Origin: an uncultured Moraxella sp.
Lineage (GTDB): Bacteria > Pseudomonadota > Gammaproteobacteria > Pseudomonadales > Moraxellaceae
DNA length: 64,000 bases
Assembly: GCF_945873075.1 (NCBI RefSeq)
Contig: NZ_CAMCBS010000001.1
Coordinates: 62,001-126,000 of the forward strand
Direction: 5' to 3'
Shown here: positions 50,563 through 64,000 of the stretch, piece by piece
Layout of the letters: every line of letters starts with the position of its first letter
How positions within the stretch are numbered: the stretch's first letter is position 1
Notes under the pieces: generated by a model
The model's database searches: none
The model's input: only the letters and a program-made list of their open reading frames with translations
Told to the model about the DNA's origin: nothing
Program-made: the position numbers and the translations under genes

Positions 50563-51543
50563 ATGGCGACAAAAGCACGCAAATCCAATAAGCAAGGGGC
50601 GGTTTACCTGCTTGAAATGCTTAAGAAAATTCCCAAACAGCCCAAAAGCATCAGCAGTAGCGAGCTACATCATGCACTGACGGCACAGGGCTACACACTC
50701 AGCCTGCGTACGCTGCAGCGGGATCTACAGTCATTGTGCGATGCATTTGGGATTATTTGTGATGATCGTCAGACACCTTATCGCTATCAGTGGTCGGCGC
50801 AGTCTTCTGGCGTGAGCATTTCGCAGATGAATGACCAAGAAGCGTTGCTACTGCAATTGGCATATCAGCATCTTAAGCATTTTTTGCCAAATTCTGCCAA
50901 GACATCGCTGGAATCTCTCTTTGCGCAAGCAGGTTATGAGCTGTATCATCGGGATGCGACCGATGATCATGCCAAAGCATGGATGAAAAAAGTTGCCATT
51001 GCGCCGATGGCTCAGCCATTATTACCCCCTGTGATTTTGCCTGAAGTGCTCGATGCCATCAGTACAGCTTTGTATGACAATCGATATTTGACCATCAGAT
51101 ATGCCAACCAAACTCAGCGTCGCCACAATCTTAGCAGTGAATACAGCATCAAGCCTTTGGCGCTCGTGCAACAAGGGAGTAATCTGTATCTGGTCGCACA
51201 GTTTGATGGCTTTGATGATATTCGTCATTTGGCACTGCATCGCTGTCAGGCAGCAGCTGTGTCGTCGCTGACATTTGAGTATCCGAGTAGGTTTGATTTA
51301 TCGGATTATATCAATCAGCAGGCGGGTTTTGGTTTTGGGCGAGAGCGGATTTGCCTTGAGTTTTGTATTGATGCGATTGAAGGATTTCATCTGACCGAGA
51401 CGCCATTATCAGCCGATCAAGTGATACAGGCGCATGATGGCTATTATCATGTCCGCGCGACCGTGATGGATAGTGATATGCTAGATCGCTGGCTCAATGG
51501 CTTTGGCGAGAGCGTGTGGCAGGTGAAAAAGACGAAGGCGTGA
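50563..51543 (+). CDS. WYL-domain transcriptional regulator (BrxR/CapW-like)
   Basis: A 326-residue regulator. Residues about 15-75 form a winged helix (VYLLEMLKKIPKQPKSISSS, YTLSLRTLQRDLQSLCDAFG). Residues about 165-240 are the WYL domain (YLTIRYANQTQRRHNLSSEY, IKPLALVQQGSNLYLVAQFD, IRHLALHRC), in which the W of the WYL triad is replaced by L (NLYLVA). A C-terminal WCX-like domain follows. WYL proteins commonly repress defence operons and sense nucleic acid or nucleotides. The ATG at 50563 has AGGAG upstream; the in-frame extension overlaps the lpd terminator. The stop is 3 bases before a palindrome that is repeated before the AAA+ gene. Confidence 0.85.
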   Translation: MATKARKSNKQGAVYLLEMLKKIPKQPKSISSSELHHALTAQGYTLSLRTLQRDLQSLCDAFGIICDDRQTPYRYQWSAQSSGVSISQMNDQEALLLQLAYQHLKHFLPNSAKTSLESLFAQAGYELYHRDATDDHAKAWMKKVAIAPMAQPLLPPVILPEVLDAISTALYDNRYLTIRYANQTQRRHNLSSEYSIKPLALVQQGSNLYLVAQFDGFDDIRHLALHRCQAAAVSSLTFEYPSRFDLSDYINQQAGFGFGRERICLEFCIDAIEGFHLTETPLSADQVIQAHDGYYHVRATVMDSDMLDRWLNGFGESVWQVKKTKA

Positions 51544-51546
51544 TGC

Positions 51547-51563
51547 GCGACACAGATTGTCGC
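51547..51563 (+). promoter_or_regulatory. Operator palindrome 1, upstream of the DUF262 pair
   Basis: GCGACACAGATTGTCGC: perfect arms GCGACA and TGTCGC with a 5-base spacer, 40 bases before the DUF262 start. TTGTCG inside the palindrome followed 17 bases later by GATAAA (51580-51585) could be the promoter, so binding would block it. Confidence 0.7.
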
Positions 51564-51603
51564 CAAATCGTGTTATCATGATAAAAAATAGCAGGAGAGT
51601 GTT

Positions 51604-52947
51604 ATGAGTACGACAGGTTCAGATCCAAAATTGGATGTCTATAAGATCAATGAAGTGTATAAAAAAGGTCTATCCATCCCTGATTATCAGCGGCCGTATA
51701 AGTGGCGTGTGGAGAATGTACGCCAGCTACTTGATGACCTAAATCATCATTGTATCAATCAACCAAACAGCACCTATCGTCTGGGTACTTTAGTGATTCA
51801 CAAAAATCAAGATAAATATGACATCGTTGATGGTCAGCAGCGCTTGGTGACTTTGGCGTTGATTTTGCATCGTTTGAAAGATACAAGCATTGATGCATTT
51901 TTGGAAAAAGATCAATTTGCCCACCCAATCAGCCAATATCATATCTATCATAATTATCAACTGATTAAGCAGTATCTAGGTGCATTGGATGGCAATAGTA
52001 AAACAAGCTTGCGGGAATTTATCCAAAAGCAGTGTGAGTTTGTGTGGATTGAGCTGACCAATCAAAATGAAGCGTTTCAGTTTTTTGATTCACAAAATGC
52101 TCGTGGTAAAAGCCTTGCGCCGTATGATTTGCTCAAAGCGTATCATCTGCGAGCCATCCCATTCGATCACCCAAATAAGCTTGACTATGTCATGCGCTGG
52201 GAGCGGGCTATTGATGGTAAGCCAAGCTTAGATCAAGTCATTAGCAAGACATTGTTTTGCTTGCGTCAGTGGTCAAAATCTCGTCGGGCAGATGAGTTTA
52301 CGGTCAAGCAGCTGTCTGTGTTTAAAGGTGTGACGCTTGAAGAGCCTTATCCCTATCTCAACGCTGTGCGTGCCAATTTGGCATTATACCAAGAGCACCA
52401 AGCAAATCCATGGCGTATGGTACAGCCGTCGCCGTCGCCGTTTCAGACCACGCAGCCATTGATTGATGGTGAGTTGTTTTTTATGTATATCGACCATTAT
52501 GTGCAGATGTATCATCGGTTGTTTGATAAAGATCAAGGTGCGTTAAATGGCTATTTTTTCACCTATGGTACCAGCGAAGTCAAAAAGCAAATCAGCTATT
52601 TGGATGCGATGGATTATGATGGTTCGCATCGTACAGGTGATGGCTATTTACGCATCTTATTTTATGCGATGGTATTGATGTATTATGATAAATTTGAGAC
52701 ACATGGTTTGGATGTGGCGTTATCGCGGATTTTTAATTGGGTGTTTCAAGTGCGTCTAGACAAAGAACGAATTGATTGGGGCACGATTGAAAAAATCGTC
52801 GCTGAGCGTGATGGTTTGTTTGATGTGTTGTTGCACGCCATCCATCCTAAACAAATTGCCAATTTTATCGTGATGCCTTTATCTGAGAGTAAAAGCAAAT
52901 CCGTTCAGTTAGCAGAGTATCTATCAGCACCAAAGTCGTCATCATAA
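51604..52947 (+). CDS. DUF262 protein without DUF1524 (GmrS-like)
   Basis: A 447-residue protein. The N-terminal DUF262 (ParB-like NTP-handling) domain has SIPDYQRPYKWRVENVRQLLDDL, GTLVIHKNQDKYDIVDGQQR and the core DGQQR at 76-80, then FQFFDSQNARGKSLAPYDLLKAYHLR. The C-terminal half is helical, and I cannot find the HNH/DUF1524 pattern (IEHxxP... NxxN) seen in the next gene. So it may be a non-nuclease partner. GGAG precedes the ATG; the next gene starts 11 bases after the stop. A Pro-Ser repeat (PSPSP) sits near residue 276. Confidence 0.85.
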   Translation: MSTTGSDPKLDVYKINEVYKKGLSIPDYQRPYKWRVENVRQLLDDLNHHCINQPNSTYRLGTLVIHKNQDKYDIVDGQQRLVTLALILHRLKDTSIDAFLEKDQFAHPISQYHIYHNYQLIKQYLGALDGNSKTSLREFIQKQCEFVWIELTNQNEAFQFFDSQNARGKSLAPYDLLKAYHLRAIPFDHPNKLDYVMRWERAIDGKPSLDQVISKTLFCLRQWSKSRRADEFTVKQLSVFKGVTLEEPYPYLNAVRANLALYQEHQANPWRMVQPSPSPFQTTQPLIDGELFFMYIDHYVQMYHRLFDKDQGALNGYFFTYGTSEVKKQISYLDAMDYDGSHRTGDGYLRILFYAMVLMYYDKFETHGLDVALSRIFNWVFQVRLDKERIDWGTIEKIVAERDGLFDVLLHAIHPKQIANFIVMPLSESKSKSVQLAEYLSAPKSSS

Positions 52948-52958
52948 GAGGAAAAGTT

Positions 52959-54962
52959 ATGAGTGAAGCAGTCAAATTATTAACCATCGAGCAGCTATTA
53001 AGCCAAGATCACTATCTAATCCCCGTCTATCAGCGCAACTATGCATGGGGCGGTGTTGAGATTGGGCAATTGGTTCAGGATTTGTATAAAGCGTTTGAGC
53101 AGGATAAGGACAAGGCTTATTATCTCGGTACTTTAGTGGTGCATCACCGAGCTGATGGCAGGTATGAAGTCATTGATGGTCAGCAGCGATTGACGACTTT
53201 GCATATTTTGAACAAATGTTTATCAAAGTTTGATGATGGTTGTGATTTGTATAAAATTCAATGGGATACAGAACAAACCAAGCTTGACTTTGAATCTCGT
53301 CCAGAGTCCAAGGCGCAAATCGATGATCCGGCGATAGCGATGAAAACCGATAGCAGTATCGCTTGTGGCTTTGATGAAATGTGGCAGGCATTGATGAATC
53401 TTAAAAATTTGAATGGTGCAAATATTGATTCATTTAAAAAATTTATCAATGAACAAGTTAAAATCTGCCGCACCATCGTGCCTAAAGATACAGATTTGAA
53501 CCATTATTTTGAAATCATGAACACGCGTGGCGAACAGCTTGAAAAGCATGAAATCATCAAGGCGCAGTTAATGGGTAAATTAGACCAAAAAGACCAAAAA
53601 GACCAAAAAGCATTTGCGATGATTTGGGATGCCTGTTCGGATATGAGTCGCTTTGCGGTATCGGGCTTGCCGACAGTCATACGAGCAGAATTTTTTGTGG
53701 ATGAATTGCCCAATCGCCTAGAGCAGGATTTTGACTTGGACAAGTTTAAGCAGTCACTGATTAAAAAAAGGGTAGAAGAATTAGAGTCTGAAAAATTAGC
53801 AACTGAAGAGTTTGAGACAAGAAAAGCTAAGATTGAACAAGATCTTGAAACTGGCGAATTAGAAGACGGTCTTTCTATCCGTGATATTATTGGCAAATCA
53901 ATCAACAAACCCAAAGATGATAATCATACCGATGATGGCAAATACCAATCGGTGATTGATTTTCCAAACTTTTTATTGCATGTACTAAAAGTGCAAGAAA
54001 AGGAAGCAGAAAAAGAAAAAATCAGCTTGGATGATGAGTCATTGCTGACAGCATTTGAATCTTTGAAGGATGCAGATGCGGTTAAGCGATTTGCGATGGA
54101 TTTGTTAAAATGCCGTTTGTTGTTTGATTATTATGTGATCAAGCAGGACAACCGCAAGGCAAATGATGGCACGGATGTCAAGTGGGCGATCTTACAGCCC
54201 AAGCTAAGTAATAATAGTATCTATGCCAAAAATACTTTTCAAACCAATGTGGATGGGGAATCTAAATACAACGAGCATCTGGTGATGGTACAGGCGATGT
54301 TTCATGTGTCGCACTCGAGCCGCACTTATAAAACTTGGCTACAGGATATTTTGGCGTATTTGTGGAAGAATCATGCTCAGACTAAAGATGAAGATTTTGA
54401 TAAGAAGTTTCTTAATAAACTACATTGTTTGGCGTATGACTATTACCAAAAACAGCAGGACAAACTAAGCTATCCTGATGTGTCTTATTTTATGCTCAAT
54501 TATGTTGATTATTGTTTGTGGTATCAGTGGAAACAGGCTGGGCAGGATAACAAAAGTGATGAGTTTTTTAAAGGGTACGCACCAAATCAAAATTCCAATG
54601 CTAATGAGCTAAAAAAGGCTTTTGCTAAGTTTGTCTTTATGCATCGCTCATCGATTGAACATTGTTATCCACGCAATCCAGAAGATCAATCCAATCGAAA
54701 AACAACAGACGATGATTTAATAGCACTGAATCAATTGGGCAATCTGTGTTTGGTAAGTCATAGCGAAAACTCACGATTATCCAATCTGATGCCTGCTGCA
54801 AAATGCGATAAAGTCATCGCACGGCTCAATAGCGGGAAGAGTACCCAAAGTCTAAGTCAGCTGATCATGCTGATGCACAAAAACTGGGATATAAGTGCGA
54901 TTGAAAGCTATACAGGCAAATTGGAAGGATTGATCAAAGAGCAAATTGAAACCATTGTCTAA
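52959..54962 (+). CDS. DUF262-DUF1524 HNH endonuclease (GmrSD/SspE-like)
   Basis: A 667-residue protein. DUF262 at the N-terminus: YLIPVYQRNYAWGGVEIGQLVQDL and DGQQRLTTLHIL with DGQQR at 73-77, plus FEIMNTRGEQLEKHEIIKAQLMGKL. A central Lys/Glu-rich helical region follows. The C-terminal DUF1524 HNH nuclease has H568 in IEHCYPRNPED, N595 in ALNQLGNLCLVSH, and NSRLSN. In GmrSD, BrxU and SspE the same pairing cuts modified or phage DNA using NTPs. It is close to the upstream DUF262 gene (11 bases), followed by a strong terminator. A 9-base unit GACCAAAAA is repeated three times in frame (53583-53609). Confidence 0.9.
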   Translation: MSEAVKLLTIEQLLSQDHYLIPVYQRNYAWGGVEIGQLVQDLYKAFEQDKDKAYYLGTLVVHHRADGRYEVIDGQQRLTTLHILNKCLSKFDDGCDLYKIQWDTEQTKLDFESRPESKAQIDDPAIAMKTDSSIACGFDEMWQALMNLKNLNGANIDSFKKFINEQVKICRTIVPKDTDLNHYFEIMNTRGEQLEKHEIIKAQLMGKLDQKDQKDQKAFAMIWDACSDMSRFAVSGLPTVIRAEFFVDELPNRLEQDFDLDKFKQSLIKKRVEELESEKLATEEFETRKAKIEQDLETGELEDGLSIRDIIGKSINKPKDDNHTDDGKYQSVIDFPNFLLHVLKVQEKEAEKEKISLDDESLLTAFESLKDADAVKRFAMDLLKCRLLFDYYVIKQDNRKANDGTDVKWAILQPKLSNNSIYAKNTFQTNVDGESKYNEHLVMVQAMFHVSHSSRTYKTWLQDILAYLWKNHAQTKDEDFDKKFLNKLHCLAYDYYQKQQDKLSYPDVSYFMLNYVDYCLWYQWKQAGQDNKSDEFFKGYAPNQNSNANELKKAFAKFVFMHRSSIEHCYPRNPEDQSNRKTTDDDLIALNQLGNLCLVSHSENSRLSNLMPAAKCDKVIARLNSGKSTQSLSQLIMLMHKNWDISAIESYTGKLEGLIKEQIETIV

Positions 54963-54966
54963 CAGC

Positions 54967-54996
54967 AAATAACCGCCATTGTGCGGTTATTTTTTT
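54967..54996 (+). terminator. Intrinsic terminator between the DUF262 pair and the AAA+ gene
   Basis: AAATAACCGC (54967-54976) pairs with GCGGTTATTT (54983-54992), followed by T. It makes the AAA+ gene a separate transcription unit. Confidence 0.88.
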
Positions 54997-55011
54997 GTGC
55001 CATATCTGTAT

Positions 55012-55044
55012 GCGACACAAAATGTCGCACTGTGTTGTTATACT
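55012..55044 (+). promoter_or_regulatory. Operator palindrome 2 and promoter, upstream of the AAA+ gene
   Basis: GCGACACAAAATGTCGC (55012-55028) has the same arms and spacing as the palindrome at 51547; here the arms extend to 7 bases (TGCGACA/TGTCGCA). A -10 TATACT lies at 55039-55044, so the palindrome covers the -35 region. The AAA+ start follows 33 bases after the -10. Confidence 0.75.
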
Positions 55045-55076
55045 ACCATTACCCACCCGTGACAAAGGAGCGTATG

Positions 55077-57155
55077 ATGAAGCAGACAAAGCAATGGGTT
55101 GATGTGAATCAAGTCAGTTTATCGCCTTATGCGGAGTATATGGTGCTACATGCCTATTTTGGCTGTGACTGTGGCATACGGTTTGATGAGTATTTACAGC
55201 AGTGTGGCAAGGCGCTGGGCGTCATTGATGATGTTGATGAGATTGATCGAGATGACTATGCCAAGATTAAACAGCGACTCGATGACCGCTATCAGACGAT
55301 CAAGCGGACAGGCATCGCAGACAGCGACGACTGGCAGCAGCCGTATGAGAATATCGCTTGTTTGGCAGAGTTTTTGGCGCTAAGCGATGATGAGATTGCG
55401 TTTCTTAGATTGGCGCTACATACCGTCGCCGAAGAAGTGCTGCGTGAGTTGTTGCAGCAGATTAAAAAGGATTATCGGCAATTACTGCGCTTTGTCGCCA
55501 AGCTATTGGACTGTGATGAGACGGCGATACGCTTTTTGATGACATCCAAAAATCAGCTGCGCAAATTTGGTATCTTGGCTGCTTGTTATAGATATGGCTC
55601 GAACAATTATACTCATGCAAGTGATTTGCTTGACTGGGGTGACTGCATTACTTGCACTGATTTTTTGATGCGACCGATCAGCAAGGATGAGCTCGTCAAG
55701 CAGTGCGTCATGCCGGTGGCATCGGCAGGCCTTTTAGCGACTGATTTTGCTTATATGGATGAGCACTATCAGATGATGGCGGCATATCTTCGCCATGCTT
55801 ATACTGCCCAAAAATCAGGCGTGAATATCTTACTCTATGGCGCACCTGGTACGGGCAAGACGCAGCTGGCGAGCGTCTTGGCAGAGCAGCTGGGCGTTGC
55901 GGGGCTTGCGGTGACTCATCAAGATGATGATCAAGACCCACTTTCTGCCAAATCTCGACTTTATAAGCTAAGACTCAGTCAGGCGCTATTGGATAAAACA
56001 TCGACGCTGTTGATTTTCGATGAAATCGAAGATGTTTTTGCTGCAAATGCTTTTGATAAATCGGTGGGTCAAGCGCACAAGGCATGGGTGAATCATCAAC
56101 TAGAGACCAATCCTGTGCCGACGATTTGGATCAGTAATGACATCGATATGATGGATCGAGCGTTTTTGCGGCGCTTTGATCTGGTGGTGCAGATGCCCGA
56201 TTTGTCTGTCGCACAAAAAGCAGCGCAGATCAAGGCGCAAGTCGGCGATCGGCTTAGCGATCAGCAGATTGCACATTTTGCACAGGTCAAGTCATTGAGC
56301 GTGGGTATGATTGAGCGTATCTTTGGTGTGGCGATGAGTGTGGATCAGCAAGGCGGTCATCAAAACTTCGATCAGCTGTGCTTGATGATGGTGAATGAGG
56401 TGCTAAAAAGTCGCGGTGCACCTACCATCCAAGCTTATCAAGACAAAAAATCCGAGTTTCGACTAGAGTATGTATCTTGCCAAAGTACGCTTGCCAAGAT
56501 CAGCGATGGCATTAAAGTGCATAAGACAGGGCGGATTTTGTGCTATGGCGAGCCTGGCTCAGGCAAGAGTGAATGGGCGAAATGGCTTGCCTTGCAGATG
56601 GATGTGCCGCTGCATCTGTATCGTGCATCGGATCTGATGTCCAAATATGTCGGCGAAACCGAGCAAAATATCGCCGCCGCCTTTAAACTTGCAACCCAAA
56701 CGGGTGGTGTGCTGATGATTGATGAAGTAGATAGCCTGCTGTTTGACCGTGAGCAGGCGCAGCGGCACTGGGAGCGTACACAGGTCAATGAGATGCTGAC
56801 ACAAATGGAGGATTTTGAAGGGGTGATGATCGTCTCGACCAATGCCAAGTCTGTGCTTGATATGGCTGCCATGCGCCGTTTTGATGTCAAGCTTGAGTTT
56901 GGTTATTTGACCGCCGAGCAATGCTGTGCCATCGCTGATGAGATGCTGAGCGAGCTTGAACTTGGCGCACTCAACGACACCCAAAGACGCCGTCTGTCAC
57001 GACTGAGTAATCTGACGATGGGGGATTTTGTGGCGGTGCGCAGGCGTCATCGTCTGGCAACGTTTGCATCGGCAGGCGAGTGGCTTGATGGCGTCTATGA
57101 TGAATCGATGGCAAAGCAAGACAATTTGCCACAGCCGATGGGTTTTGTGGCGTGA
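55077..57155 (+). CDS. Tandem AAA+ ATPase of the WYL/DUF262 module
   Basis: A 692-residue protein with two AAA+ domains. Residues 1-225 are a helical N-terminal domain I do not recognise. D1: Walker A GAPGTGKT at 255-262, Walker B LIFDEIED (D315, E316), sensor-1 WISNDID and arginine-finger-like RAFLRRFD. D2: Walker A GEPGSGKS at 491-498, Walker B MIDEVDSLLFD (D549, E550), pore-like KYVGETEQNI, sensor IVSTNAK and AAMRRFDVKLEF. KYVGETEQNI and RRFD recall Cdc48/FtsH-type remodelling ATPases. Start at 55077 has AAGGAG 6 bases upstream; ATG at 55074 is also possible. It shares an operator with the DUF262 pair. Confidence 0.88.
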   Translation: MKQTKQWVDVNQVSLSPYAEYMVLHAYFGCDCGIRFDEYLQQCGKALGVIDDVDEIDRDDYAKIKQRLDDRYQTIKRTGIADSDDWQQPYENIACLAEFLALSDDEIAFLRLALHTVAEEVLRELLQQIKKDYRQLLRFVAKLLDCDETAIRFLMTSKNQLRKFGILAACYRYGSNNYTHASDLLDWGDCITCTDFLMRPISKDELVKQCVMPVASAGLLATDFAYMDEHYQMMAAYLRHAYTAQKSGVNILLYGAPGTGKTQLASVLAEQLGVAGLAVTHQDDDQDPLSAKSRLYKLRLSQALLDKTSTLLIFDEIEDVFAANAFDKSVGQAHKAWVNHQLETNPVPTIWISNDIDMMDRAFLRRFDLVVQMPDLSVAQKAAQIKAQVGDRLSDQQIAHFAQVKSLSVGMIERIFGVAMSVDQQGGHQNFDQLCLMMVNEVLKSRGAPTIQAYQDKKSEFRLEYVSCQSTLAKISDGIKVHKTGRILCYGEPGSGKSEWAKWLALQMDVPLHLYRASDLMSKYVGETEQNIAAAFKLATQTGGVLMIDEVDSLLFDREQAQRHWERTQVNEMLTQMEDFEGVMIVSTNAKSVLDMAAMRRFDVKLEFGYLTAEQCCAIADEMLSELELGALNDTQRRRLSRLSNLTMGDFVAVRRRHRLATFASAGEWLDGVYDESMAKQDNLPQPMGFVA

Positions 57156-62164: not shown

Positions 62165-63499
62165 ATGAGCGATCTACAAGTATCTGTGAATGTCATCTCT
62201 GACAAAGAAACACAGCTAACCGTTAAAGTGCCAGTGGGCAACATCCAAAGCAAAGTCGAAAGCCGTATTCGCAGCGTCGCTAAGACTGCCAAGATTGATG
62301 GTTTCCGCAAAGGTAAAGTACCAGTGTCGCACATCCGTGCTCAGTATGGTGCAGGCATCCAACAAGAAGTCATCAACGATGTGATTCGTGACACCGTATT
62401 TGAAGCACTAGCAGCCGAAAAAGTCCGTGTGGTTGGCGTGCCAAACATCGATGATGTCAAGCTAGAAAACGATTTCTTGGTTTATCAAGCGACTGTTGAG
62501 ACTTTCCCAGAAGTGGAAGTTAAAGGTCTAGGCGAAATCGAAGTTGAGCGTCAAGTAGCGACTGTGTCTGACGAAGATGTCGATGTGATGATCGAGAGCC
62601 TACAAAAACAACGCCAAACTTTTGAAGCCAAAGACGGTGCAATCGAAGATGGCGACCAAGCGACTTTTGATTTCTCAGGCTCAATCGATGGCGAAAAATT
62701 CGAAGGCGGCAGCGCTGAGAACTACACGCTAGTGATCGGCTCTGGTCGTATGATTCCAGGCTTTGAAGATGGCATGAAAGGCATGAAAGCTGGTGAAGAA
62801 AAAACCATCACCGTCACCTTCCCTGCTGACTACCAAGCTGAACACCTAGCGGGCAAAGATGCACAGTTTGTCATCACCGTCAAAGAAGTCAAAGCTGCGA
62901 CCTTGCCTGAGCTAAACGACGAATTCTTTGCACTATTTGGTGTGACTGAAGGCGGTCTTGACAAGCTAAAAGCTGATGTTCGTAAGAACATGGAGCGTGA
63001 AGTCAAGCACGCAGGTCGCAACCAAGTCAAGCAAGCGGCATTTGATGCACTACTAGAAAAGAACGAATTTGATGTGCCAAAAGCGATGCTGGATCAAGAG
63101 ATTGACCGTCAGCGTCAAATGATGCTAAACCGCTTTGCACAGCAGTTCGGCGCAAACCCTGCAAGCTTTGATGCAAATATGCTACCAAATGAGCTATTTG
63201 AAGACCAAGCATTGCGTGCGGTGCGTCTAGGCGTACTAGTAAGCCAAATCATCGAAGCGCAAAAGCTAGAAGTGGATCAAGAGCGTGTCTCTGCGTTCAT
63301 CGCTGAAGCTGCCGAGAACTACGAAGACCCACAAGAAGTCATCGACTACTACACCAACGACAAGCAGCAACGCGCTCAAGTTGAGTCTGTGGTGCTAGAA
63401 GATCAAGTAGTGGATTATCTACTAGGTCAAGCCAAAGTGACTGAAAAAGAAGTCAAGTACCAAGAGCTATTGGCGGCAGCACAACAACAAGCCATCTAA
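62165..63499 (+). CDS. tig: Trigger factor (ribosome-associated chaperone)
   Basis: Peptidyl-prolyl isomerase and chaperone at the ribosome exit tunnel. The ribosome-binding signature is in [20 protein letters not shown]. The PPIase domain is [21 protein letters not shown] with [17 protein letters not shown]-like residues, followed by the helical C-terminal substrate domain. The 444 residues are typical. clpP follows after 127 bases, the conserved tig-clpP(-clpX) order. AAGG lies upstream of the ATG. Confidence 0.97.
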
Positions 63500-63551
63500 T
63501 TGCCCAAGTACTTAGACGGCTAAAGGTTGAATTTTAGCAAATTGACAAATG

Positions 63552-63578
63552 CCCCAAAGCGTATGCATTGGGGTTTTT
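63552..63578 (+). terminator. Terminator of tig
   Basis: CCCCAA (63552-63557) pairs with TTGGGG (63568-63573), followed by a T run. Confidence 0.65.
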
Positions 63579-63626
63579 GTTCTCAAGTTTCTTAGTATGG
63601 ATAATTAATTAAACAGCGGAATATTT

Positions 63627-64000
63627 ATGAATATCAAGAACAATCCTTTTTATGACCAATTGGCGGATGCCTATCATGCGCCCCAAAATACGCTTGTGCC
63701 GATGGTCATCGAGCAGTCAGGTCGTGGCGAACGCTCATTTGACATTTTCTCTCGTCTATTGCGTGAGCGTGTGATTTTTTTGACCGGTCAAGTCGAAGAT
63801 AACATGGCGAACCTAATCGTCGCTCAGCTACTATTCCTAGAAGCGGACAACCCCGAAAAAGACATCCATCTGTACATTAATTCACCAGGCGGTGTGGTGA
63901 CAGCAGGCATGGCGATTTATGATACGATGAATTTCATCAAGCCAGATGTCTCAACCATCTGTCTAGGTCAGGCGGCATCAATGGGCTCGTTCCTGCTGTC
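63627..64000 (+). CDS. clpP: ATP-dependent Clp protease proteolytic subunit ClpP (3' truncated by window edge)
   Basis: Serine protease barrel of ClpXP/ClpAP. The visible 124 residues include [58 protein letters not shown] and the active-site serine in [13 protein letters not shown], where the window ends. The catalytic His and Asp lie outside. The start ([11 protein letters not shown]) is the first ATG after the tig terminator. Confidence 0.95.

Follow-up and report, generated by a model that had tools for sequence, protein, structure and literature searches.

A four-gene locus in an uncultured Moraxella sp. was found to join a TgvAB-type restriction gene pair to a DriD-like WYL regulator and a double AAA+ ATPase, and we consider it probable (at about 0.6) that the four genes form a linked anti-phage module in which the regulator acts as a switch and the ATPase is a ClpP-linked unfoldase. 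The locus occupies positions 50563 to 57155 of the stretch of 64,000 nt that was analysed (contig NZ_CAMCBS010000001.1, positions 62,001 to 126,000; hereafter the window). As had been predicted from the letters alone, the four genes lie on the plus strand directly after the lpd terminator; the open reading frame (ORF) list and Pfam matches confirmed their identities, and the defence-type character proposed at the same time was supported. The double AAA+ protein and its family are called AAA2 here. The parts are of known kinds, whilst their wiring and the AAA2 tail appear to be new: in the open-access literature searched, part of which was available to us, no description of either was found, nor, in line with the original prediction, of a system in which a WYL regulator and a double AAA+ protein accompany such a pair.

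The WYL regulator gene comes first (wHTH-WYL-WCX; 50563..51543, plus strand; Pfam WYL 5.5e-10, with WCX at 7e-4, below its cut-off). It is followed by an exact inverted repeat (operator 1, GCGACA-CAGAT-TGTCGC, 51547..51563), a -10-like TATCAT (51574-51579) and the tgvA-type gene, encoding 447 aa with DUF262 and DUF7834 (51604..52947, plus strand; GmrSD_N 7e-31, DUF7834 1e-53). The tgvB-type gene encodes 667 aa with DUF262 and GmrSD_C, a DUF1524 HNH domain (52959..54962, plus strand; GmrSD_N 1e-31, GmrSD_C 4.2e-10). Direct reading revealed an intrinsic-terminator-like hairpin with a T run 3' of tgvB (54970..54996, plus strand), beyond which lie operator 2 (GCGACA-CAAAA-TGTCGC, 55012..55028; perfect over 19 bp as TGCGACA-N5-TGTCGCA), a -10-like TATACT (55039-55044) and the AAA2 gene, encoding 693 aa (55074..57155, plus strand; Walker A and B motifs and Pfam). 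The four genes probably constitute two transcription units rather than one simple operon, since the hairpin separates tgvB from AAA2, AAA2 has a promoter-like region of its own and each unit has its own inverted repeat.

The window contains two exact copies of a perfect 17-bp inverted repeat, GCGACA-N5-TGTCGC, one 5' of tgvA and one 5' of AAA2; the genome of 2,087,468 bases has three, compared with zero for a reversed control. When the 6,860-base stretch holding the two sites was compared with 2000 dinucleotide shuffles, 1998 contained no copy, two contained one and none contained two; no inverted repeat of the 6-5-6 form was present twice in any of 300 shuffles. The third exact site (contig 14, 3951-3967; L156) precedes a gene with an OGFr_N domain, and no defence gene was seen near it in its 3-kb stretch. 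Enrichment across whole genomes is weak, and only the position and the perfection of the sites are telling.

The operator was also found, on sequence evidence, to be kept before AAA2 genes of distant genera. A first sample of 74 AAA2 genes comprised eight plasmid loci (of 894 plasmid records), 39 of 80 genome contig loci, one viral contig (L110, the only one of 44 viral loci in the main counts) and 25 genome stretches; the interval from -250 to +100 of each start was searched with the 19-bp consensus, and AAA2 genes with <200 nt around the start were left out. With up to two mismatches, the operator preceded 14 of the 29 AAA2 genes with a WYL gene no more than 6 kb away (the window gene is counted among these 29), six of the 45 without one and 29 of 733 other genes, compared with 0/29, 0/45 and 1-4/733 for three control palindromes. 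Allowing three mismatches gave 20/29 and 7/45 (controls 0-1 in each) and 50/733 (controls 12-24); at four mismatches the figures were 23/29 (controls 3-6), 16/45 (controls 5-10) and 128/733 (controls 94-120). A second sample, drawn from the phylum (34 stretches, 35 AAA2 genes), yielded sites with up to two mismatches in 2/6 genes with and 5/29 without a WYL gene (totals over the three control patterns, 0 and 1), and with up to three mismatches in 3/6 and 5/29 (control totals 1 and 3). The inner core CGAC-N7-GTCG was located before 22/108 AAA2 genes versus 45/1017 other genes, with four control palindromes giving 1, 3, 2 and 1 of 108 and 11, 28, 5 and 7 of 1017, respectively. At offsets of 10 and 11 nt past the core, a -10-like xAxxxT starts in 0.43 and 0.43 of these sites, respectively, compared with ≤0.14 at other offsets. 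L293 and L035 are probably the same locus; both were included in the second-sample counts, and L293 was dropped from the core count and from the AAA2 tree described below.

The protein likely to bind these operators resembles DriD in its predicted fold. An AlphaFold model of the WYL protein based on a 12-sequence alignment (predicted local distance difference test, pLDDT, 80; predicted template modelling score, pTM, 0.56) had DriD as its best structural match in the PDB (E 2.6e-14), followed by PafBC, CapW and BrxR; no sequence match was detected among solved PDB chains at E≤0.01. The six closest WYL homologues found (39.6-42.4 % identity) adjoin AAA2 genes directly or one gene away. DriD is a WYL activator that is itself activated by single-stranded DNA (ssDNA); its consensus site, ATACGAC-N7-GTCGTAT, covers a poor -35 box at a fixed distance to the -10 box, and sites are reported at bapE, recJ, dnaG and didA (PMC12340889, a preprint). 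Both window operators carry the DriD core CGAC-N7-GTCG and are positioned over the -35 region, as in DriD sites. It is possible, though in our view unlikely, that the protein is instead a BrxR/CapW-type repressor which silences tgvAB and AAA2 and is released on infection: BrxR and CapW are WYL proteins that repress defence genes from inverted-repeat sites (PMC9122601, PMC9122588), and both are among the structural matches of the model. CapW sites, however, overlap the -10 box, whereas the site here lies over -35 with 10-11 nt to the -10 box, as for DriD, and DriD outranks CapW and BrxR in the structural comparison (E 3e-14 versus 3e-8 and 4e-7). An activator is preferred to a repressor because of this placement of the operator, and its ligand would, by analogy with DriD, be ssDNA.

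The arrangement was then compared among relatives. An lpd gene was found in 19 of 22 genomes of the genus, including the source genome, and a WYL gene follows it in two of the stretches examined, those of the source genome and of congener G006. In G006 (L283, 6320-10168; identities of 98.8 % for lpd, 90 % for WYL, 90 % for TgvA and 82 % for TgvB), the operator arms before tgvA are kept with a changed spacer, and the hairpin, the second operator and the promoter are kept after tgvB; AAA2 is missing apart from a possible 38-nt remnant (84 % identity), and the next gene encodes a YadA-like anchor. In G012, lpd directly adjoins the gene that in the window comes next after the module, representing the empty arrangement. 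In G206, the WYL gene is divergent from tgvAB, with one perfect operator between them and a second beyond the WYL gene. All the window elements (WYL, operators, tgvAB and AAA2) recur together in G514, which belongs to another family (L331, 1-11927). Its island contains a WYL gene, four operator-like sites (three share the arms AGCGACA-N5-TGTCGTT and the other is a variant), two Sir2-like genes, unknown genes and a contiguous tgvA-tgvB-AAA2; one site, then a Sir2-like gene, others and tgvA-tgvB-AAA2 are all on one strand, and AAA2 has its own core site just upstream. The G514 AAA2 is closest to that of the window among the other 109 (39 %, 486 bits; next 368 bits), and in a tree of 59 rows (the best 59 of 110, each of at least 600 aa) the two are sisters with 100 % support in the Shimodaira-Hasegawa-like approximate likelihood ratio test (SH-aLRT). 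After that of G006, the G514 TgvA is the nearest to the window TgvA by a narrow margin (263 vs 258 bits), and its TgvB is not the closest to the window TgvB.

Among 369 genomes of the class, DUF7834 (TgvA) was detected in 11, AAA2 in 25 and both in four; the two are adjacent in the source genome and separated by 26 kb in G417, whilst in G093 and G243 they are on different short contigs, so that only the first two genomes bear on adjacency. A conserved four-gene operon as a single fixed system was rejected in that form; the same genes were later found in another order in G514.

The AAA2 family is common (25/369 genomes of the class and 42/398 of the phylum at E≤1e-60) and its neighbourhoods are varied. 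Distances were counted in 66 AAA2-bearing genomes, 34 of which had a DUF262 match; the 47 DUF262 rows were merged into 41 loci, one of them below the family cut-off. Three of the 41 lie within 3.5 kb of AAA2 (two without the source genome), compared with 0.13 expected at random, whilst four lie within 10 kb and seven within 30 kb. This excess is modest evidence, because the random expectation takes no account of the tendency of defence genes to cluster. WYL domains within 6 kb of AAA2, counted in 42 of the 66 genomes, numbered 12/68 (0.31 expected), or 11/66 without the source genome. In G081, an operator with one mismatch, an AAA2 gene split into two frames, a DUF262 protein gene and a WYL gene lie on one strand; L030 (Methylococcaceae) comprises AAA2, WYL, a single-chain GmrSD and a dynamin-like gene; and L037 has a GmrSD-like gene in a divergent unit. 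Neighbour counts are approximate, as a custom gene caller was used and genes may be missed. Other AAA2 neighbours include genes for DUF2779, Sir2, RtcB, ADP-ribosylglycohydrolase-phosphatase, calcineurin-like phosphatase, PD-(D/E)XK and UvrD proteins, and for a type III-like methyltransferase with helicases. WYL- or Nudix-regulated ADP-ribosylglycohydrolase systems with restriction endonucleases (REases) have been predicted (Iyer 2022; PMC9503650), and a search for 'AAA+' in the available text of that article gave zero matches.

A set comprising an unknown protein of ~411 aa, a PLD-like protein and an SNF2-like helicase recurs beside AAA2 and WYL in L025, L027 and L033, and perhaps L021, with only partial PADLOC matches. 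A record deposited as a phage (L332; MT835507.1, 'Bacteriophage sp.', unverified), which may be a bacterial defence island, contains an AAA2 gene (67 % to Pseudomonas lactis) with WYL, Sir2-like and UvrD-like genes. A clade in the Burkholderiales represents a stand-alone form: its neighbours are fixed, none of them within 6 kb is a WYL gene, and no upstream operator was found at up to three mismatches (L042, L043, L046, L049, L202, L294, L297, L298 and L301).

A dedicated role for AAA2 as a DUF262 helper was rejected, since AAA2 is mostly found beside other genes. Of the partnership put forward in the original prediction, what stands is a recurrent link (3/41 loci and the G514 sister); that prediction had itself named rarity beside DUF262 genes as evidence to the contrary, and such rarity is largely what the co-occurrence counts returned. 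Rather than a subunit of TgvAB, AAA2 is better regarded as a component that WYL-controlled islands commonly have.

Several of the results count against a linked module. Within the source genome, 16 operator sites were obtained at up to two mismatches versus 11 for the control, and in the whole genomes of 25 AAA2 carriers a hand count at up to one mismatch gave 29 sites versus 17 (147/369 genomes had an operator match in that scan). The second sample was weaker, with the operator at up to two mismatches before only 7/35 AAA2 genes, and no WYL gene was located within 6 kb of 45/74 and 29/35 AAA2 genes in the two samples, although some stretches were short. Nine of ten further tgvA loci had no site with up to two mismatches (three of them had 3-mismatch sites), G206 being the only one of the ten that did, so that 4/13 tgvA loci carry the operator when the window, G006 and G514 are included. 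G206 keeps tgvAB with no AAA2 detected at E≤1e-60. Full-chain template modelling (TM) scores are low, at ~0.3 between the WYL model and DriD and ~0.4 for AAA2, the matches being by domain. An alternative would be that the units adjoin by chance within a defence island, with TgvAB self-contained and AAA2 serving another function. Most AAA2 loci indeed have no DUF262 neighbour, G006 retains WYL and tgvAB without AAA2, which is thus not needed for tgvAB to be retained, and TgvAB alone restricts T-even phages in Escherichia coli (PMC11411939). The same operator nevertheless stands before both window units, tgvA-tgvB-AAA2 forms an unbroken run in G514, where the AAA2 protein is sister to that of the window, and AAA2-DUF262-WYL and AAA2-WYL-GmrSD orders occur in G081 and L030, respectively; overall, we consider chance the less likely explanation.

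By sequence, AAA2 belongs to a family of Cdc48-like unfoldases that end in IGF or MGF. The window protein has Walker A motifs at residues 256 and 492, Walker B motifs at 316 and 550, RRFD at 366 and 601, and a YVG pore loop at 525 in the second AAA+ domain (D2). An aromatic-X-glycine pore loop is a mark of protein translocases, and it was present in D2 (X being V, I, L or, once, Y) in 27 of 28 aligned AAA2 relatives. The solved relatives by profile were VCP/Cdc48, NVL, AFG2 and Rix7, and the fold matches of the model in the PDB (pLDDT 82.5, pTM 0.62) were Rix7, Cdc48, p97, NVL and Drg1. A Cdc48 N-domain was not found: among the 25 of 42 Pfam matches listed, none has its best stretch before residue 258 (in a 724-aa reading). 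A tripeptide of the type [ILMVF]GF was located within five residues of the end in 62/74 AAA2 proteins and in 0/723 other genes of the same loci, and such a tripeptide lies within eight residues of the end in 31/35 of the second sample. In the window protein it is MGF (residues 689-691; codons 57138..57146, plus strand), in a low-confidence tail of the model (pLDDT ~46-60). Clp unfoldases dock on ClpP through loops of the LGF/IGF type (PMC10149685), and AAA2 has a tripeptide of this kind, [I/L/V/M]-G-[F/L], in a part predicted to be flexible. In one locus, from an Oligosphaeraceae metagenome-assembled genome (L066, 1637-4598), the gene immediately preceding AAA2 is clpP (Pfam 2e-63), and a WYL gene lies divergently on the other strand. 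Because of the GF tail, the pore loop and this clpP neighbour, we put forward the hypothesis that AAA2 docks on ClpP through its C-terminal tail. Positions 62165-63998 of the window itself, 5 to 6.5 kb past AAA2, hold a trigger-factor-like gene and the beginning of a clpP-like gene, which is probably a coincidence.

AAA2 might alternatively be a ClpP-independent remodeller like Cdc48 or Rix7, with the GF tail binding its own ring or a partner, perhaps TgvA or TgvB. This is a serious possibility, to which we give slightly less than even odds: the structural matches (Rix7, Cdc48, p97, NVL and Drg1) are of that kind, the tripeptide is C-terminal, whereas the Clp IGF/LGF sits in a loop, and clpP adjoins AAA2 in only 1/107 loci (73 without the window, plus 34). 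The tail is also present, however, in AAA2 proteins without a DUF262 neighbour, its distance to the end varies and it lies in a low-confidence stretch of the model, as would suit a docking peptide for a widespread partner. For the remodelling of the nuclease complex or of modified DNA, which the original prediction had suggested for the ATPase, no support was found; a general protein unfoldase of such regulons, perhaps ClpP-linked and not specific to TgvAB, fits better.

The DUF262 pair had been likened to GmrSD, BrxU and SspE, and on the strength of domains and motifs this likeness could be refined: the two form a restriction pair of the TgvAB type (GmrSD family, type IV), which is of a known kind. 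QR, DGQQR and FxxxN are retained in both proteins, as YQR 28, DGQQR 76 and FDSQN 161 in TgvA and, among others, DGQQR 73 and FEIMN 184 in TgvB, which also retains the H...N...N of GmrSD_C (EH 567-568 with H568, GN 594-595 with N595, then NSRLSN 604-609). Relatives on a Vibrio aerogenes plasmid (37.9 % identity to TgvA and 35.0 % to TgvB) sit behind hsdR-hsdM-hsdS; in the window, no hsd gene adjoins the pair in the ORF list between the sucA-like and clpP-like genes or in the Pfam matches of five genes. The tgvAB layout and motif set were described on VPI-2 (J Bacteriol 2024; PMC11411939), where both genes were needed, Vibrio cholerae TgvAB restricts phages with modified cytosines and E. coli carrying TgvAB alone resists Tevenvirinae. 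The same article gives 1,341 tgvAB matches versus 79 in a five-gene type I context, with homologues outside type I loci including a Psychrobacter (Moraxellales), and a review adds the related pair GrwAB (PMC12409362). HEC-06, Orf5 and SspE were rejected as identities for the DUF262 proteins, the PADLOC, NCBIfam and Pfam matches being partial or at the domain level; the HEC-06 and Orf5 models moreover span ~530-600 positions of one chain and were not used to name the pair. TRIP13, DolB and mad8 were rejected for AAA2 on the same grounds, as was IetA, which scored 114 bits where the cut-off is 510. The PADLOC check for an already named system thus gave only partial matches.

Taken together, the module would most probably operate as follows. 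Infection or damage would yield ssDNA, which the WYL protein would bind along with the operators, as DriD does; the tgvAB and AAA2 promoters would then be switched on together through CGAC-N7-GTCG operators over weak -35 boxes. TgvAB would cut phage DNA with modified cytosines, an activity reported for the V. cholerae pair only, and AAA2 may unfold phage or damaged proteins and pass them to the ClpP of the cell through its MGF/IGF tail. If so, testable answers would be available to two points, namely how TgvAB-like restriction is switched on and what double AAA+ proteins do in defence islands. A DriD-type ssDNA switch would tie restriction to damage sensing and could make it a late, second line of defence after first cuts have given rise to ssDNA, whilst an IGF tail acting as a ClpP dock would mean that defence islands hold a so far overlooked class of unfoldases from the classic AAA clade that feed ClpP. 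The core with a -10 box at 10-11 nt provides a search handle for further members. More tentatively still, and with considerable doubt, a DriD-like, ssDNA-activated immune regulon might extend, in scattered form, across the Pseudomonadota and beyond, usually with a Cdc48-type unfoldase that recruits housekeeping ClpP by its C-terminal IGF tail, and with interchangeable nucleic-acid effectors (TgvAB, GmrSD, Sir2, RtcB, the DUF2779 protein and the PLD-helicase); were this true, in the source genome type IV restriction of modified phage DNA would be coupled to ClpP-dependent protein destruction. We know of no restriction system tied to a dedicated ClpP unfoldase.

Compared with known systems, the locus shares with TgvAB a pair of neighbouring genes whose products both have DUF262 at the N-terminus, the second also having DUF1524 at the C-terminus, and the QR, DGQQR, FxxxN and H...N...N motifs; it differs in that no type I genes adjoin the pair, a WYL regulator and an operator stand in front of it, and AAA2 follows with the same operator before it. 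Its regulator has in common with Caulobacter DriD the wHTH-WYL-WCX fold at the domain level and the CGAC-N7-GTCG core over -35 with fixed spacing to -10, whereas here the sites lie at restriction and unfoldase genes, identity is ~20 % and ssDNA binding is predicted. BrxR and CapW are likewise WYL regulators beside defence genes with inverted-repeat operators, but they are repressors, CapW sites lie on the -10 box and the structural match is weaker than to DriD. AAA2 resembles Cdc48/p97, Rix7 and Drg1, its best PDB matches by profile and fold, in having two AAA+ modules, and differs in the conserved C-terminal IGF/MGF tail and in that no N-domain family was found. IetAS consists of an AAA ATPase paired with a protease; IetA is the best PADLOC/NCBIfam partial match of AAA2, with the best stretch in the second AAA+ domain, whereas the IetA model has 367 positions, about half of AAA2, and no protease gene is among the genes directly adjoining AAA2 in the window. 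Finally, several AAA2 islands share ADP-ribosylglycohydrolase-phosphatase, Sir2, RtcB and REase-fold genes with the systems predicted by Iyer in 2022, whereas the four window genes include none of those enzymes and instead combine a TgvAB-type pair, a WYL regulator and AAA2.

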